A stretch of 64,000 nt of DNA from the NCBI GenBank assembly GCA_905233245.1, contig CAJODK010000016.1, forward strand, positions 1 through 64,000, written 5' to 3'. A model generated the notes under the pieces. It worked only from the letters and a program-made list of their open reading frames with translations, ran no database searches and had not been told where the DNA came from. Each line of letters starts with the position of its first letter. The stretch's first letter is position 1. Shown here in pieces: positions 38 through 41,778 of this stretch. The translations under genes and the position numbers were made by a program. This DNA is from an uncultured Prevotella sp. (GTDB lineage Bacteria; Bacteroidota; Bacteroidia; Bacteroidales; Bacteroidaceae).

Positions 38-3000
38 ATGAGAAGAAACACAGAAATGAAGCCAAATAACATGTATATGAACATTAAGCGACACATACAG
101 ACTTTAGTACTTACAGCACTCCTGCTCATCGCTGGAGGCATGATGAACTATGTTACGGCAAAGAAGGTGACATACCACATCCTTACCAAGCCATTCAACG
201 TAAGGACATGGGACAACCAAGGCGATTTCAGGTCGAATATCCGTGTTGAAGCATTGCAGTGCATCAGCGAGGAAGCAAAGGTAGGACTGCCAGACCAGTT
301 CAAGAGTCCGCTTGCCACCAACTTCAGGTATTGGGGAAGTGCAACATATACCTATGCTAATCTATACGACAACCACACTGGTACAAAAATCATAAATGCG
401 AAATACTACATTTATCAGTGTGAAGAGGGAAACCAGTATGCATGTTTAAGTAATGAGATACTCAATCCTGAAGGTACCTCTTCAGATGCATATACCGACA
501 TATACGTAACCTACGACTACATCAACGACAGTCATGAACTCGGGTGGAAAAACGGCATCATGGAACTTGACGGTGCAACGAAATATAACCTTGCCATAAC
601 CTCTGGAGGAACGAAGAAATTCATGGCATTCAACCGTAGCCGTAACAACCGCGTTGCAAACGCCAACGCCGCAGCCTTGTCTGGAGAGCAACTGGCAAGC
701 GAAGACTTTGTTTTACCTCAAGAAGGAACAGGAACCAACCAACTTGGTTTCTATTACAGCAGTTGGGGTCCCAAGGGACTTTTCATGGGATTCGAACTTG
801 AAGGTAAAGATCCTTACAACATCACCATAAAGACCTCATACGAAGGAGAAGAGATACATATAACAGACAAGACCAGTGCGGATTCTAAAGCAACCATCAA
901 ACCGTACGCAGGTTCAACTCTCTTTTCCCAACTTGGTGCCAGTTCAATGTGGTTTGATGCCAGCGACAACAGGCATTACATACTTGAGGCTGGTAATGCC
1001 AGTGCCTCAGAATACACCTCTGCGAAATATGCTGAATACAAGCAAAAATGGAAAGACGCTGAAAGCGATGCAGAGCGATATCAGGTCTGGACGGGTTTCT
1101 ACCGAGGCGAGACTCCCACAATGAATTCATACGCCATACTGCCTAATATTGCTAATGGCGGATATATGTTCGTTGCAAGTAAAGCGAACCAAAATACTGG
1201 AGGTACAGCTCCTACCATTAAACAGCCAAATGCAAGCGGCCAATACTACGTCTATTATGATTATTTTGACACTGATGGTGGCAAAAGAAGAAGCCAGCCG
1301 TATTTTAAGCTACAGTCGCTCAACTCTGCCTACCCCACAAACTTCTATGAGATAAGGAACTATACCGTCAACATCAAGACACATGGCTCAGGAAGTACGC
1401 TCACTGCTACCATGAAGTGGAGTGATGCCATGCTTTCCGAGGATCCTGCCGACCACGTTCCTGATGCCCTCAAGCGTAAATACGTAACCTACAGCGCATA
1501 CAAGGACGAAGCCCTGACACAGCCTCTGACAACCTTTGACGAGGCTGCTGCCAATAGCTACGTGATATGGCTTGACTACACAGTTTCAGAATCGCTGCCC
1601 TTCGACACACTCGCTGCTACAAGCGGCACGTATGACTATAGGAATGCCCGTTGGTACACTATGCGTATGAACGGTACTGCAGAGCAGAAGAACATTGCCT
1701 ACAACTCTTCCAACAACCTCATAACTGGCTCAACCTCTATAGGCAGCAATAGCGACCTCCATACAGGAGAAGACCAAGGTGTCAAGGTGCAGGTGGCATT
1801 CATTGGCGATCCATACGAACTGAAAATCATTAGCCGCGAAGCGAGTGAGAATGCAAATGCCAACCGATACATAGGGTGTGCCACAGGTGCTACAGACGGC
1901 ACAACCCTCAACACCAACAAGACTGGTTCCTCCGACATCAGCACATGGGAAATAGTGTATGAGAACACAGACTTTGAGAGATTCGTGTTGAGACAATACA
2001 ACACATACGCCTCACCAAAATACATCGGCTGGAGTTCTGCTGGCGACCATCCCGTCACCTACAGCACCACAGAAAGCCGTATAAGGGTAGTCGAACTTAA
2101 ACAGGTTCCCTATACCTACCATATCGTACGCAACGATGCCGGTGACATAGCCGTAAAGGCTACAGTAAATCAGGACATGGGAAAGATGCTGAGAACATGG
2201 CAGGACATACCAGATATCATTCGCAGTCCGTTCCTCTCAACAGCCACCGTTACCTATTATGCTACACCAGAAAATGCCATGGCAAAAACGTCTGCCATAA
2301 AAAATGCAGCATACAGCAGCACAGGTGGCGACATATACGTAAGGTATGACGTAACAATATCAGGCTCTGCTTACAACGTAAGACTCAACAATGACTACAT
2401 CTATACTGACGAGGGAGATGCCATCAAAAGCAAGGCGAGCATAAGCGACTCCGAGAGGGATCAGAACCCATTCCAGTGGACTTTGGATTACAGCGATCCA
2501 TACCACATGACGATAAAGAACAAAGACAAAAACAAATATGTCAATGTCGAATTTACCGATAAGGCATCCATAAGTTGGAGTGATACTCCATCATATTTCG
2601 TAGCGAAAAGTGGTGCATTAACTGGCACATACGAGGTGATGGCTGCAACTGGCGAAAGCGTGAATGCCTCAACAACATACTACAACATTGGTCGCCCAGA
2701 GCAAGATGTCGTGAAGCTTTACAGTAATGCCAGTTATCTGCATGGTAACCAGACAATCCGTTTCCAGCTTATAGGCACAGAAGCTACGGTGGTGCAATAT
2801 CACCTTATCGACAAGGCAGGAAAAGTCCTTCTAAAGGCTGCGACACGACAAACCCAGACAGACCCCGTTGATTTCCCGCCAGAATTCAGAAGCCCGTTGG
2901 TAAGTGACTACCACTACTTTATTAAAAGTGATTTTACCGAAACCAACGGCATCTATACTCTCAATACACCGACACCGACAGAGGTGGCAACAGTAGGTGA

Positions 3001-6000
3001 GAACGGACACATCTACGTCACCTACGACGTAAATGACCTCGTGAACCTACAGCGCGGACAGCTATACCTGCTGAAATATGAGGCAGGTGAGAACTTCCGT
3101 CAAGAGGACGGCGGCGACAACCTGCTGCCATACGTAGCAGACATGTCAACTAACACATACAGATACAAAGCCATCTATCCCTACGTTAACGGTGACGGCA
3201 ACTTCTTCGTCTATGGTCAGGAACAGTATGACATTCAGCAGGAAGGTGCATCAAGCACACGTACCCGATGGGCTTGGTTCTTGCAGAGCGACTTAGGGGA
3301 GAAGGGCGACCCCTACCACGTAAAGATAAGGTCACGCCAGTCAGAATCTTATCCTATCACAGACAGCAAAGAGTACAATGCCTTCTTTGCAACCTTTAAG
3401 CCCGCCGGCTATGAACATGTGGTGACAAGTCTGGTGTGGCCTGGCATATCCGGCGAACCTGCAACTGATTATATGGTACTCGGCAGTGAAGGACAGTACC
3501 AGCTGATGACTTCCTACAAGGTGGATGTCAACGGAGACGGAGACACCGACGATGCCGAGGACGAACGACAAGTGGTAGATTCGTTCGAGCAGTACTGGAA
3601 GACATACGACACCTTAAAGAACAAACTGCTGTCAAGTATTCTGGACGAAGAGGACAAAGGAGCGAAACTCTCTGTCTCTATCACCGTTCCTGAAAAGGCG
3701 AAATACATAGACCTGTTGGAAGATACATACGGTTTCCACAAATATGAGAACTGGGCATACGCCAAGCGTTTCAATGGCTATAACAACGGCTACAGCAGCA
3801 CAGTAGGTACTCCCGAAACAAAGAAAGGTTGGGAACAGATAGAGCACTGGTATCAGACGGTAGATATGGGTGACGGCTACTTCGACTTCGTGCCTACCAC
3901 CATCGACCCTGTGCTGATACTCCTTGACCAGCACGGTTGGGAGATAATGCGTAAGCCTATACCTACAAGTGATGACGACCCCGAAAAGGAAGAAAAGTAT
4001 GATGCCATACGTCCATACAACAGCCCTATGGTAAAGGAATACGCTTTCTGGGCAACGGCAAAGAAACGTTCAGGCTTCCACCAGTACTACCTGCTGAGCG
4101 ACCGCATGGGAGACGACTATACTTCCACTGACCTTACAAGTCTTCCTCCGTTCAACGGCAAGAACGTACACGACAAGAAGGGCAACCTCAACGACCAGTA
4201 CGTCACCTACATAGTCAAGGACGAGTATGCACAGACATACAATCCTGCCGACAAAACGTCGAAGCCCTTCGTCATTGAACAAGGCACGAAATATGCCTCT
4301 ACATCAGACGGCTCCACTATTACCAAGAACAGTGTTCCTGCCAATGGCATGTTGGATTACATCACCAACAATGCCATTCCAAATACCGAAAAATGGTATA
4401 TCAAGCCTAACTGGAACATAGACTACGAAATGGGATACGGTGATGCCGGTCACAGTTGGGCTGCCAAGAATCCTAATGCATACGAGGATGCAAGATACAA
4501 GAACAACAGGACTGCCCAATACATATCAAACAAGGACAGCCTCGGCTACTTCTCTTTCTCCAATGGCTTCGACCCGTATAACATCCAGATAATGCCTGTT
4601 GACTATGACAGAAAGTTCATGAAGACCAATGCCACTGGCATGAACCTTGATGAAGGCGCACTGCATGGAGTATATTCTTCTACTGCTGCAATCTCATTAG
4701 GCGACAGCATTCCGGTTGTTGACAAGAATAACTCTATATGGTTTGACAGCAGAAAACTGTCTATCACCGACGCGACCTTCATGTTCGTGCAGGATGAAGC
4801 AGGCAACATGCAGCTGATGCCGCGCTTTGACCACGACTTGCGCATGAGTGAGTTCGGCACGCTTATTGCTCCTACTGATGCCAGCGCCTCAACGACATAC
4901 ACAACATTATATCGACCAGTGGTGTATGAATACCGTATCATTGACAACAGCGGTAAGGAGTCACTGCGCTACAAGTCAGGCGGCGACCTCATGCCACAGA
5001 CACCTGACCACTTCAAGAGTCCGTTGGCTATGAACTTCAAGTACTATGCCTCTGCGACTAAGGAAGGCGACACATACAATGTTGCCGATGAGATTGAGAG
5101 TTCACTCGACGGTGCCACCCTGACTGACGACATAGTCTATGTGCGCTATGAATTTGATGAGGAGTCTAACAACCTTGGCATACTGAAGGGTAAGTGGCTC
5201 ACCATGCAGATAGATGAGAAAGATGCAAAATACAACAGCGGAATAAAGCAAGGAACGGGCAAGCCTGCTACTATTGACAATGACGACAGGGAATGGCAGT
5301 GGAAGTTCCTCGAAACTCCACTGAGCGAGCCCGACCCATACGCGGCATATATCTTCAGCCGCAGCCAAAGTGAAGGAACCAAGGCTATTGAGGACAGGTT
5401 TGCCATTCTCTCCCACACCAGTGGAGGCTATGCTTTTGCTAAGGCTGGACGTGGAGACTACACTTACCAATTCCTTAACGGAAGCAGCATGGACACCGGC
5501 ACTGATGCCACGATAGAGACAGAAGAAGGCTTCACAAGTTCTGAAGGCACTTTCAGCGGAACAGACTCCCAGGTGGAGTTTGCCGACGAGGTACAGCACA
5601 CCTTTATATATAAGGTATATACCAACAATGGTGTGAATGCCATTGATGCCACGCAGACGCAGGATGAGGTGGACAACAACAACTGGATACCAGAACTGCC
5701 GGAAACCGCCCATACGCCTCTGCTCAACATGGATCAATACCGATACTATGAACAGAGTCTTGCCGGAACAATTGCAGAAAACGACACCCTCAACAAGTCT
5801 TTGCCTTTCCTCTATGGTCTGTATGACGATGTGGTCTATACACACTATACTCCATACAGCGATGCGAAGAGCACCTATCTGGTGCCTAACGTCAGAAATG
5901 CGACCAATGTTGACCCTGTTGCACGTGGCGTAGGTTCTAACGATGCTCCAATCGGAATTGACGGCACACGTCCGTACAACATCATCTGGTATCAGGACAA

Positions 6001-20908: not shown

Positions 20909-20982
20909 GCTTCCTTAGCTCAGTTGGTTAGAGCATCTGACTGTTAATCAGGGGGTCCTTGGTTCAAGCCCAAGAGGGAGCG
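20909..20982 (+). tRNA. tRNA-Asn (anticodon GTT)
   Basis: Acceptor GCTTCCT/AGGGAGC, D arm, anticodon arm CTGACTGTTAATCAG, T arm CTTGG TTCAAGC CCAAG. No encoded CCA. The gene is reconstituted across attL. Confidence 0.95.
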
Positions 20983-20984
20983 CA
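20938..20984 (+). repeat. attL: 47-bp direct repeat within tRNA-Asn
   Basis: TGACTGTTAATCAGGGGGTCCTTGGTTCAAGCCCAAGAGGGAGCGCA, identical to 25257-25303. Confidence 0.93.
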
Positions 20985-21032: not shown

Positions 21033-21056
21033 TTTGCGAACGATTTGCGAACGATT
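21033..21056 (+). repeat. Left copy of tandem TTTGCGAACGA (candidate recombinase arm site)
   Basis: TTTGCGAACGATTTGCGAACGATT, identical to 25094-25117. Confidence 0.75.
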
Positions 21057-21220: not shown

Positions 21221-21323
21221 AAAATTTTGATTTTGACAAAAGGGAAAGGTTAAGAGCATTTACAATGCGACGGACTGTTTCTATGCTACCATCATATTTT
21301 TTAATTGTGAGCCTGCGAGCAAT
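21219..21323 (-). pseudogene. Possible remnant of an XRE-type HTH protein C-terminus
   Basis: Minus-strand frame reads IARRLTIKKYDGSIETVRRIVNALNLSLLSKSKF*; resembles HTH_3 C-termini but has no start in frame. Confidence 0.35.
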
Positions 21324-21658
21324 TCAAGAAGCGGCGCAAATGGGTACCCGGCATGGGTACCCATTGTACGCCCGTCGTGGGTGCCCAATGGGTACCCAAA
21401 GACACTTCTTGCTAAGAACCTATTCAATGGCAACTACTGGGCGTTGATATTATTCTTTCCCTTCTGTCGCAATCTGGACGACAGACCCTGTCTGTCCCAC
21501 GTTGTATCACAACGTCCTCCGACTATGATATGATAGCCGTCGGAAATTTAGTTCTTAGCAAGAAGTGTTTTTGTGATACAAAAACCGAATTGTATCACCT
21601 GTGACACAATGTGTCACGTGTGATACATTCTTCTTGAATTGCTCGCAGGCTCACAATT
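21303..21658. repeat. Nested inverted-repeat region next to rep (candidate replication origin or structured RNA/ssDNA)
   Basis: Outer IR 29 bp (21303-21331/21630-21658); inner IR 18 bp (21402-21419/21551-21568); compound hairpins 21354-21398 and 21591-21627; small hairpins in the centre. Confidence 0.85.
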
Positions 21659-22670
21659 TATTCTCTCCCTTTTTGCTCATTATGCGCTGTTCGCTGTCGC
21701 TAATGAGGTCGAAAAGTTTGCCAGCCTTAGGGAGTTCTGTCAGCACTTCTCCACTCTCTATGTCATAGTAACCAAACTCCTTCTCGAACTCTGCCCAGCC
21801 GTAGAATGATGGTGTAGCATCAGTCTCGATGGTGGCAACCTGGTCTTCATCCTCTTCGGTAACCTCTGCCACACCCCACACCTTGCCTTGCCCCAGACGG
21901 AAATACACCTTCCTACCCTGCATCGCCTCGAAGATAGTATTCATGTGAACCGCATCGAAGAAGCGTTTACCGCTACTGTCTTTGGCGATGAGCTTCGTGA
22001 AATACTTGAATATTTCCAAGATACCACCATCGCTATTTACCTTCTCGCACTTTTGTGCCTTCTCATTGCTGCAGGGGTTCAGTAGGAGCCACTGGAAGAG
22101 GATGAATTTGGCGAGCTCTTCACTTGATACCAAGAGATGAAAATGCGGATGGTAAGTGTTGAAGAGTGGGTCGGGAGAGCCATCTTTTAGGAACTGCTTC
22201 CCGTGGAAGGTGCACTCTATTTTTCGGATGCCTATGACACCTTGTTTCATGGCTTTTCGATATTCGCTGGTGTTTGCTATTTGTCGCCAAAGTTCTTGAT
22301 AGCGAGAAATCTCTTTCTTCAGTTCCTCTGCCGTCACGTTGGGGCGTGTCAGAGTGATAAACCACAGCTCCTTTTCGAGCTTAAGGCGTTCCGAGTACGC
22401 ATTTATCATCGCCCCCATCTTGTTGCGCTGGCAGATTGGACACCACCTATTCTTGCAGTATTTTGACTTAGCAAGCCCATCAGCAGTAACCTCTATAACG
22501 TTGCTGCAATAGAAGGTATTGCGATACGCTTGCGCTAACAGACTATGGGGATTTTGATAATACAACATCCCAGTTAAGTGGTAGCCAAACCACTTTAATT
22601 TATTCCTTTTAAGGATTTTTCCTTCAAAAGATTTGGAAGTTTTAGATTTATTTTCTACCTTTGCAGTCAT
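21651..22670 (-). CDS. Rolling-circle replication initiator-like HUH protein (Rep_1-like)
   Basis: CxxC-type KYCKNRWCPICQRNK; motif I LWFITLTRPN; HUH motif YHPHFHLLV; ILEIFKYFTKL with candidate catalytic Tyr. Confidence 0.85.
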   Translation of the reverse strand: MTAKVENKSKTSKSFEGKILKRNKLKWFGYHLTGMLYYQNPHSLLAQAYRNTFYCSNVIEVTADGLAKSKYCKNRWCPICQRNKMGAMINAYSERLKLEKELWFITLTRPNVTAEELKKEISRYQELWRQIANTSEYRKAMKQGVIGIRKIECTFHGKQFLKDGSPDPLFNTYHPHFHLLVSSEELAKFILFQWLLLNPCSNEKAQKCEKVNSDGGILEIFKYFTKLIAKDSSGKRFFDAVHMNTIFEAMQGRKVYFRLGQGKVWGVAEVTEEDEDQVATIETDATPSFYGWAEFEKEFGYYDIESGEVLTELPKAGKLFDLISDSEQRIMSKKGENKL

Positions 22671-22739: not shown

Positions 22740-22931
22740 TCATTTTACTGTAGATATTCCGTAATGTCCATTATTGGGATGGCGCACATAGTCGGTGAGG
22801 TTATCAATCACCTGGCTTGCCTTCTGCAGCACCTTGTAGTCTTCATTACCCATGTTGTGTTGCATAACCTGATGCATACACATATCGACGTATGCCAGGC
22901 GATTGATTATGTGTTCTTTATCCAGTTTCAT
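22740..22931 (-). CDS. Small hypothetical protein translationally coupled to the xis-like gene
   Basis: MKLDKEHIINRLAYVDMCMHQVMQHNMGNEDYKVLQKASQVIDNLTDYVRHPNNGHYGISTVK; its ATG overlaps the upstream stop (ATGA, 22928-22931). The longer ORF in the track is probably over-extended. Confidence 0.7.
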   Translation of the reverse strand: MKLDKEHIINRLAYVDMCMHQVMQHNMGNEDYKVLQKASQVIDNLTDYVRHPNNGHYGISTVK

Positions 22932-23248
22932 GCCTCGACACCTCCTTTCATCACCTTTTTCACGTCCTCGTAGTCGTAGAGGATGCGCGAACCGACCTTT
23001 CGGTACTTTAACTTTCCGTCTCGGTTCATTACCCACAGTGCAGGGTACTTCACGCCCAGGAGCGTCTGCACCTGCTGACACGTCAGCAGCTTCTCACCCC
23101 CGAAAGCAAAAGGTGTAATAACTTCACCATTCGGAGCTATGTCCGAAGGCATTTGCGGTTTCTTCATGGCTGCAACCATTTCCGCAGCCAACGCTCTGGC
23201 GCGAGACTCTATCTCGCGTTCCATCAATTCCAAGAGTTCTGTACTCAT
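22928..23248 (-). CDS. Excisionase-like helix-turn-helix (HTH_17/MerR-type) protein
   Basis: EKLLTCQQVQTLLGVKYPALWVMNRDGKLKYRKVGSRILYDYEDVKKVM; start taken at MSTELLELMER. Confidence 0.8.
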   Translation of the reverse strand: MSTELLELMEREIESRARALAAEMVAAMKKPQMPSDIAPNGEVITPFAFGGEKLLTCQQVQTLLGVKYPALWVMNRDGKLKYRKVGSRILYDYEDVKKVMKGGVEA

Positions 23249-23253
23249 TTTAA

Positions 23254-23378
23254 AACATAACCATACGACCGTTTGATTAAAAACATGACAAAAAGACATC
23301 CTTCTCACATCAATTTAATGTAAGGAGGAAGCGAGAGCCCATTTAAAAAGCTGGATGCTGCGGTCGTATGGTTATGTT
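23254..23378. repeat. 18-bp perfect inverted repeat upstream of the xis-like gene
   Basis: AACATAACCATACGACCG (23254-23271) / CGGTCGTATGGTTATGTT (23361-23378). Confidence 0.8.
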
Positions 23379-23630: not shown

Positions 23631-25085
23631 TCACCCGAGCAGTTTCTCCAGCAGAGCCTTCATTTCTGCTTTGGTGAGTTTGTCGAGATTGGGCTTTTCG
23701 GCAGGAGCCTCTTCCTCTATATTGAGCAACTTCATATTATTGCGATAGCGAATTTCCAAGGGGTATGCGTCCATGTACCCTGCAGTCACATCGTTGCCGT
23801 GGGAGTGCCCCATGCTTTCTGCGATGTATTCTTCCTCCACCCCAGCGAGCTTTAGGTTGGTTGCGAAAGAGTGTCGCGCCCAGGTACCAGACACCTCCTT
23901 CTCCCAGCCAAGAATTTCAGTGCATATTCTGCGCACTCTCTCACGGACGTTGCAATTCTCCATGAGGATTATTCTCCTTCGTTCATCCTCGTCCTTTACA
24001 TCATGAAAAATGAAAGGAAAGAGAAATCCTCCTTTTGTCGGCTTATCCGCTATTTCATCCAACACTCTTTTGAGTGGGGGGATGATAGGTACTATTACTA
24101 CAGAGTTGTCGTTGCTGCGTGCTGCTGTCTTCCTGCGTTGAAATTCTAACGCTTTGCCTTTGTCACTCCAATATGCCTTATTATAGGTAAGTCGTGCAAT
24201 ATCCGTGAGGTTGCAACCGTTGCAAAGATATTGTGCCAGGAATAGCCCCAACGATTGATGGGCGCGCTCGATGTAAAAAACGCCCCATTCCATAGGGTAT
24301 CGCTTTTCCATAAAAATCTTATATAGTTCAGTCCATTCCTCCACGCTGAGGTATGACTTTTGACGACGCTTGCCTCGAGGTATCGAAACCAGGTCGTTAC
24401 TCTTGTTGCTAAACGGGTATTCGGCTTCTGCCAGAAAACCTTGTTTAACACATTCGTTCCAAATAACGCGACAAGCACGAAGGTATATGCCTCTTGTCGT
24501 GTCCGACATCTTCTTTATGCTATTTCCCTTTGCATCTACCCCGTTCTTCATTCCTTCACTCCATTGGGCAATTACGCTCTTGTTAAGAGAAAAGCCCTCT
24601 ACATCCCCAACAACCCTTCGGAAGGAGCGTAAGGCGCATTCGTAGCTTTCAGCGGTTCCTGCACGTCCTTCCTTACGCCTGGCTGCAATAACGCCCTCCC
24701 ATATTCCGATGAAAGACTTATTCGCCTCTCCGTCTATATCCACTCCAGAAAGAATAGCACGAATAAGTGGCATGGTAAGTTGTTGCTTCTCGGCAACCTT
24801 AACAAGACGTGCCCTATACCCTTCCAATACAGCTTCCCATTTCTTTTTTATCGGGAATAGGGCACTCCTGCTTGCACTCACGCTGCACACCTCGTTAAAA
24901 TATTTCTCCGTATAATACTCATTAAGATGCTGGAAATAGCGTTCCTCCTTGCCATTAGCTGACCTGTAGAAACGAACAGACAAAGGATATTCATCTGAAC
25001 TTCGATTACTGCGCTTGTCAAGCAGCAGAGAGATATTAAAGTCTCCTACTCGATTTGTCGTTAATGATGTGACTTTTTTACCCAT
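23631..25085 (-). CDS. Tyrosine recombinase/integrase
   Basis: 484 aa; phage-integrase core with FLAQYLCNGCNLTDIARLTY, GTWARHSFATNLKLAGVEEEYIAESMGHS and a C-terminal Tyr (TAGYMDAY). Confidence 0.93.
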   Translation of the reverse strand: MGKKVTSLTTNRVGDFNISLLLDKRSNRSSDEYPLSVRFYRSANGKEERYFQHLNEYYTEKYFNEVCSVSASRSALFPIKKKWEAVLEGYRARLVKVAEKQQLTMPLIRAILSGVDIDGEANKSFIGIWEGVIAARRKEGRAGTAESYECALRSFRRVVGDVEGFSLNKSVIAQWSEGMKNGVDAKGNSIKKMSDTTRGIYLRACRVIWNECVKQGFLAEAEYPFSNKSNDLVSIPRGKRRQKSYLSVEEWTELYKIFMEKRYPMEWGVFYIERAHQSLGLFLAQYLCNGCNLTDIARLTYNKAYWSDKGKALEFQRRKTAARSNDNSVVIVPIIPPLKRVLDEIADKPTKGGFLFPFIFHDVKDEDERRRIILMENCNVRERVRRICTEILGWEKEVSGTWARHSFATNLKLAGVEEEYIAESMGHSHGNDVTAGYMDAYPLEIRYRNNMKLLNIEEEAPAEKPNLDKLTKAEMKALLEKLLG

Positions 25086-25093
25086 ATTATTAC

Positions 25094-25117
25094 TTTGCGA
25101 ACGATTTGCGAACGATT
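25094..25117 (+). repeat. Right copy of tandem TTTGCGAACGA, directly upstream of int
   Basis: Identical 24-mer; ends 9 bp from the int start codon on the minus strand. Confidence 0.75.
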
Positions 25118-25256: not shown

Positions 25257-25303
25257 TGACTGTTAATCAGGGGGTCCTTGGTTCAAGCCCAAGAGGGAGC
25301 GCA
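25257..25303 (+). repeat. attR: 47-bp direct repeat, displaced tRNA-Asn 3' half
   Basis: Identical to 20938-20984; lies upstream of the minus-strand integrase start. Confidence 0.93.
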
Positions 25304-25407: not shown

Positions 25408-25432
25408 CAAGCCCAAGAGGGAGCGCAAAAGA
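25408..25432 (+). repeat. Third tRNA-Asn 3'-end remnant
   Basis: CAAGCCCAAGAGGGAGCGCAAAAGA matches the tRNA tail plus the first flanking bases at attL (20966-20990). Confidence 0.8.
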
Positions 25433-41145: not shown

Positions 41146-41778
41146 ATGGAAGTAAATGTATTGAATATACAGGGCAAGGAGACAGGACGTAAGGCTGTTC
41201 TTAATGACGCTATCTACGCTATCGAGCCAAACGACCATGTTCTCTACCTCGATGTAAAGCAGTATCTGGGCAATCAGCGCCAAGGTACAGCAAAGGCTAA
41301 GGAACGCTCAGAGATGAGTGGTTCTACTCGTAAGCTTGGTCGTCAGAAGGGTGGCGGCGGCGCACGTCGTGGTGACATCAACTCACCTGTACTGGTAGGT
41401 GGTGCACGCGTGTTCGGTCCACGTCCTCGTGATTATCGCACTAAGCTGAACCTCAAGACAAAGCAGCTGGCACGTAAGAGTGCTCTCTCTTACAAGGTGC
41501 AGGAGAATGGTCTTATCGTTGTTGAGAATTTCAACATCGAGTCACCAAAGACTAAGGAGATTCTTGCAATTGCCAAGAATCTGAAGGTAGAAGGCAAGAA
41601 GCTGCTTTTTGTTATGCCTGAAGAGAATAAGAATGTTTATCTTTCTGCACGCAACCTGAAGGGTGTAGAGGTAATGGGTGCTCAGAATATCAACGCCTAC
41701 AAGGTGATGAATGCTGACGTGCTCGTTATGGCCGAGGGTGCTATTGAGAAGATAGACGCAGTTTTAACCAAAGCTTAA
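41146..41778 (+). CDS. rplD: 50S ribosomal protein L4
   Basis: [33 protein letters not shown]. Confidence 0.97.

Follow-up and report, generated by a model that had tools for sequence, protein, structure and literature searches.

A putative opposite-strand pair of oriTs on a relaxase-less tRNA-Asn element of Prevotella

We find that a 356-bp nest of inverted repeats in an uncultured Prevotella sp. is, with a probability of about 85% on the sequence evidence, a pair of oriTs on opposite strands, of the Bacteroidales mobC (NikA-like)/MOBP type, carried by a mobilizable element that is integrated in tRNA-Asn and has neither a relaxase nor a mobC of its own. The structure lies in a 64-kb stretch of DNA, which we call the window (Table 1). 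oriT mimicry of this sort is an already known kind of organization, of which the pair in the window appears to be a variant. The sequence of the sites, together with their linkage to mobC and relaxase genes elsewhere, gives good support to their identification as oriTs, and the element probably moves between bacteria by means of transfer machinery that other mobile elements supply.

Table 1. Features of the putative oriT pair and of the integrated element that carries it (positions are those of the window)
Feature	Position	Strand	Evidence or remark
Putative double oriT: two inverted oriT-like modules with a common central spacer	21303–21658		Inverted repeats, folds, PWM, profile
Left oriT module (candidate)	21303–21419	−	R1 match 21305–21414, 20.9 bits, E 6.6e-4 (whole genome); PWM 29.9 bits
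Left module, core (reverse complement)	21306–21319	−	
Left module, arm2 (CAAGAAG on +)	21325–21331	−	
Left module, compound hairpins	21354–21398 and 21339–21365	−	
Left module, arm1 (CTTCTTG on +)	21405–21411	−	
Central spacer with small hairpins at 21499–21515 and 21518–21544	21420–21550		Sequence
Right oriT module (candidate)	21551–21658	+	R1 match 21556–21656, 28 bits, E 4.3e-6 (whole genome); PWM 29.9 bits
Right module, arm1 CAAGAAG	21559–21565	+	
Right module, hairpin GTTTTTGTGATACAAAAAC	21567–21585	+	
Right module, compound hairpin	21591–21627	+	
Right module, arm2 CTTCTTG	21630–21636	+	
Right module, core CTCGCAGGCTCACA	21642–21655	+	
tRNA-Asn (GTT), integration site	20909–20983	+	
Left att repeat, 47 bp from the 3′ part of the tRNA	20938–20984	+	47/47 identical to 25257–25303, spacing 4319 bp
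Tandem TTTGCGAACGA repeat, left end	21033–21056	+	Second copy 25094–25117
rep: Rep_1 (PF01446) rolling-circle initiator	21651–22670	−	HPH at residues 174–176, YFTK at 223
HTH_17/excisionase-like protein	22928–23308	−	Weak match
Tyrosine integrase	23631–25085	−	
Right att repeat	25257–25303	+	Identical to 20938–20984

A sequence-only reading of the region had described an elaborate nested structure overlapping the 3′ end of rep, and its details proved exact. The outer repeat (21303–21331 and 21630–21658) is matched at 29 of 29 positions and the inner repeat (21402–21419 and 21551–21568) at 18 of 18, the latter being extendable to 21397 and 21573 with 22 of 23 positions matched; the sequences and coordinates of both compound hairpins and of both central hairpins were likewise correct, and the right outer arm covers the final 8 bases of the rep ORF. 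When 60 sequences of 360 nt were simulated with matching dinucleotide composition, their longest perfect inverted repeat was 12. Secondary-structure prediction agreed for both strands, with DNA folds of −106.1 kcal/mol for the plus strand and −109.2 kcal/mol for the minus strand, which lie 15.5 and 17.8 s.d. below shuffles (z −15.5 and −17.8), and with an RNA fold of the minus strand at z −16.1; no shuffle approached the observed energies. The nested repeats are as described, with one shift of emphasis: rather than a single symmetrical structure, they comprise two inverted copies of one module of ~100 nt, whose arms are identical and whose internal hairpins are unrelated in sequence. The 29-bp outer and 18-bp inner repeats would arise because two oriT copies with wholly different hairpins face opposite ways.

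The oriT reading draws on sites that were reached through relaxases: these were gathered first, and the sequence upstream of their mobC genes was then inspected. Of 29 mobC genes that have a MOBP relaxase as partner, 28 have the core CTCGCA[GA]GCTCGCA upstream with 0–3 mismatches; in shuffles the mismatches numbered mostly 5–6. Both modules of the window contain the form CTCGCA[GA]GCTC[GA]CA that occurs upstream of mobC. Well-matching sites from a family-wide core search adjoin mobC in nearly all cases, and the oriT of the relatives analysed lies upstream of the mob genes. Among the genomes searched, related cores were common and no relaxase-bearing element had an identical one; most mobC-linked cores are of the CTCGCA kind, and the nearest of the CTCACA kind (L034 and L035) differ from the core in the window. 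The window-type core had no exact match in viral contigs, in which the general core had four, one of them (L070) upstream of mobC and the other three apparently due to chance. We also set aside pattern matches in two genomes, G295 and G040 (L011 and L015, 3 mismatches), and at L054, L061 and L065, all of which fall in unrelated coding or non-oriT contexts.

Two scoring schemes built with the window excluded gave consistent results. A PWM trained on 20 distinct mobC-upstream sites (training range 23.8–38.2 bits) gave both window arms a score inside that range; the runner-up in the 64-kb window reached 10.6 bits, and the best score in 20 simulated windows was 19.1 bits. Profile R1 was made from 33 oriTs using an alignment (A1) over the whole ~87-nt site, which consists mostly of mobC-adjoining sites with a few core-pattern finds from other genera and includes one site, L063, that has no mobC alongside. 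Searching the host genome (1.93 Mb) with R1 returned exactly two matches, which are the two halves of the structure. The same search across 299 genomes of the genus gave 58 matches, 49 of them with a same-strand relaxase 393–843 bp downstream; the other nine are four at contig ends, the two window modules, two in a single genome (G181) and one weak match.

Each half of the structure follows one plan, namely an arm CAAGAAGTG, variable hairpins, the arm CTTCTTG and the core CTCGCAGGCTCACA, with the CAAGAAG/CTTCTTG inverted repeat standing 5 nt before the CTCGCA core in both. The hairpins are strong in the left (z −6.6) and right (z −7.3) modules and in the related elements L004 (−8.1) and L018 (−4.8), and their sequences are unrelated. 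Read by eye, the right module agrees with A1 at every invariant column as far as the core, including the GT/AC 3′ of arm1; the left module, read against the same alignment, departs from the invariant GT/AC columns beside arm1. In most oriTs arm1 CAAGAA is paired with arm2 TTCTTG, or CGAGAA with TTCTCG in one group, and inner stems show compensated changes in single cases (CCAATG/CATTGG, CCTATGT/ACATAGG and CCAGTG/TACTGG). The check that the earlier reading had suggested, whether stems are kept while palindromes change, gave a positive result, in that arm pairing is mostly held, a few variants are compensated and the hairpin sequences are wholly different. No consensus structure emerged when RNAalifold was run on the mobC-linked alignment; the profile is therefore sequence-only, and support for the hairpins comes solely from individual sequences and from the arms. 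Hairpin strength differed between relaxase-less and mobC-linked oriTs (p 0.01, on six partly related modules), a difference from which we draw no conclusion.

The element that carries the pair is 4.3 kb long, is integrated in tRNA-Asn and encodes an integrase, an HTH protein and Rep_1, all on the minus strand. The tandem TTTGCGAACGA repeats near its ends also occur at both ends of L004 (1342–1366 and 6530–6554) and are probable integrase arm-binding sites. tblastn with MobC and relaxase queries found nothing significant in the element, and the families PF03432 and PF21983 are absent from the host genome assembly (1.93 Mb, partial), in which a helper may have been missed at only 82% completeness. 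The features of an oriT-only element (iOriT) are hence present: an integrase, att repeats in a tRNA gene, and neither relaxase nor mobC. We know of no described iOriT member from Bacteroidota. The 3′ end of tRNA-Asn occurs a third time, incompletely, at 25408–25432 (CAAGCCCAAGAGGGAGCGCAAAAGA), ~100 bp past the right att repeat; this copy might be the relic of a previous insertion or serve as another att site. Elsewhere in the window, ARAGORN called a tRNA-SeC at 41343–41433 that is absent from the Rfam scan and is probably a false positive.

The nearest named relative of the window element is carried by the MAG of Prevotella sp. Tb.RUG.131. This sister element (L004) is associated with tRNA-Lys, and its Rep is 74% identical. 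It has a single half, consisting of TTAGCAAGAAGT, hairpins of other sequence and then CTTCTTGAACTGCTCGCAGGCTCAC, which scores 32.2 bits with the PWM; blastn detected no second oriT in its rep-proximal region. Since L004 has one oriT, the pair is not essential. When relatives were searched for that end, matches fell directly upstream of NikA-like mobC genes, and on a conjugative plasmid of B. fragilis a weak blastn match placed the other end upstream of mobC at a distance of 68 bp; both results suggested an oriT. L018 (G181:C22, 3480–10844) is a 7.35-kb tRNA-Leu element unrelated to that in the window, with genes for an integrase, a primase, a helicase-like protein and MobC but no relaxase. One oriT lies upstream of its mobC and an inverted pair stands beside its tRNA/att site, making up to three oriT-like sites; the second member of this pair is weak or degenerate (13.0 bits) and has its own stem, ATAAAGAC/GTCTTTAT.

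The sequence-only reading had left three functions open, of which the transfer site is upheld by recurrence of the module beside mobC and MOBP relaxase genes, and the other two, a replication origin and a structured RNA, are not. That the element's own Rep_1 uses the structure as its double- or single-strand origin, with TTCTTG in the arms as the Rep nick site, could be argued from the position of the structure, which abuts rep, from the HUH motif of Rep_1, from the co-occurrence of Rep and one module in L004, and from the resemblance of TTCTTG to the nick site of the pC194 group, TCTTG^ATA. The window Rep belongs to the same protein family as those of Rep_1 (pC194/pUB110-type) rolling-circle plasmids. 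We consider such an origin improbable, because dozens of elements that were identified by their relaxase, and not by Rep, have the module ahead of mobC and a MOBP relaxase, because L018 has the module and no Rep_1 gene among its ORFs, and because Rep relatives on other replicons (L005–L008 and L010) are without the module; L010 is plasmid pRGI00604, whose Rep relative is 48% identical and whose mob gene is of another relaxase type. A large RNA transcribed with rep, acting as riboregulator or attenuator, is very improbable. The RNA fold is strong (z −16) and promoter-like matches occur inside and close to the structure, but any perfect inverted repeat will fold strongly whichever strand is read, scanning Rfam at two thresholds returned no match at E ≤ 1, and no terminator-like site lies within the structure. 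Stems, loops and orientation to rep also vary freely among relatives, a pattern of conservation that follows oriT function. Insertion of a MITE or small transposon with 29-bp terminal inverted repeats downstream of rep would account for the perfect ends and the length of 356 bp; it is scarcely credible for a sequence that is single-copy in the genome, shows no evident target-site duplication and has ends matching oriT cores that occur singly elsewhere, for example upstream of mobC, the last of which largely refutes it.

A serious alternative, although not the one we favour, accepts the oriT identity but limits function to the right module, the left being a decayed or duplicated remnant of an inverted duplication. 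It is serious because the left copy misses invariant positions (20.9 versus 28.0 bits with R1) and because L004 does without a second copy; the degenerate second module of L018 also fits. On the other hand, the left and right modules still agree in arms and core at 29 of 29 and 18 of 18 positions while the hairpins have fully diverged, which suggests maintenance or recent conversion, and the stems of the left module are intact.

The favoured reading, an opposite-strand oriT pair, resembles the oriT mimics of the pWBG749 family in S. aureus (PMC4652767, PMC8136818), in which relaxase-less replicons carry copies of another element's oriT with a near-identical core and flanking repeat, a variable hairpin (IR2, which sets specificity in S. 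aureus) and two copies on opposite strands. The likeness is in arrangement only, as the window element is integrative, comes from Bacteroidota, has an unrelated core that goes with a relaxosome of the NikA-like MobC/MOBP type, and has its copies packed in 356 bp with a common spacer. Where an S. aureus plasmid has two mimics, their strands are invariably opposite, their cores near-identical and their IR2 hairpins often different, and the opposite placement is ascribed to relaxase-mediated recombination, which is thought to delete the DNA between same-strand copies (PMC4652767); IR2 is read by the accessory protein SmpO (PMC8136818). iOriT elements (PMC11389934) share the integrase, tRNA att site, oriT and lack of a relaxase with the window element, which adds a Rep_1 initiator and a second oriT. 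Unlike it, the Bacteroides mobilizable elements that have MobC and a MOBP relaxase, such as Tn4399 (MocA/MocB) and cLV25 (BmgA/BmgB) (PMC5704250), encode their own relaxase. A relaxosome of the Tn4399/cLV25 kind, compared here by relaxosome type, probably acts on the oriT of the window.

In the cycle that we propose, Int and the HTH protein would excise the element as a circle, and relaxase and MobC from a co-resident element would bind one of the two oriTs. The CAAGAAG/CTTCTTG stem would extrude with its hairpins, the relaxase would nick at or near a presumptive TTCTTG^A site immediately preceding the conserved core, and a single strand would leave through the type IV channel of the helper. 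In the recipient, the ends would be rejoined by the relaxase, and the circle, perhaps first amplified by Rep_1, would be inserted at tRNA-Asn by Int. We infer the nick position, the helper and transfer itself, as well as two specificities, to which the identical arms and core combined with unrelated hairpins point. Placement on opposite strands would prevent relaxase-mediated deletion between the copies. Compact inverted pairs with palindromes that are unrelated and change freely might even be a recurring device of relaxase-less Bacteroidota elements, offering two relaxosome specificities, one per strand, with the palindromes as a code read by NikA-like MobC, but this generalization is speculative and we hold it as rather doubtful.

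Knowledge of oriTs beyond Proteobacteria and Firmicutes is poor, which makes mobilizable elements without a relaxase difficult to spot. R1 offers a profile with which to search for the oriTs of a very common MobC/MOBP system, with relaxase relatives in 137 of the 299 genomes of the genus, and it marks a 4.3-kb element without any mob gene as probably mobile. The S. aureus rule that multiple oriTs lie on opposite strands would thereby extend to Bacteroidota. Some further sites were observed. The locus L063 (G623:C16) has a good oriT match and no mobC was found in it, perhaps reflecting another oriT-only element or a contig-end effect. On Enterococcus cecorum pEC67 (L021, ~2996–3040), a perfect palindrome, CAAGCAGTGTTTTTGTAATACAAAAACACTGCTTG, upstream of the relaxase operon is like arm1 of the right module and is possibly a distant oriT. 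B. fragilis pBFO18_2 (L052, 1144–1189) has AGCAAGAAGTGTCCTTGTCGGACAA just upstream of mbpA, with the same arm1 and no downstream core; arm1 of this type is found in small Bacteroides mobilizable plasmids.
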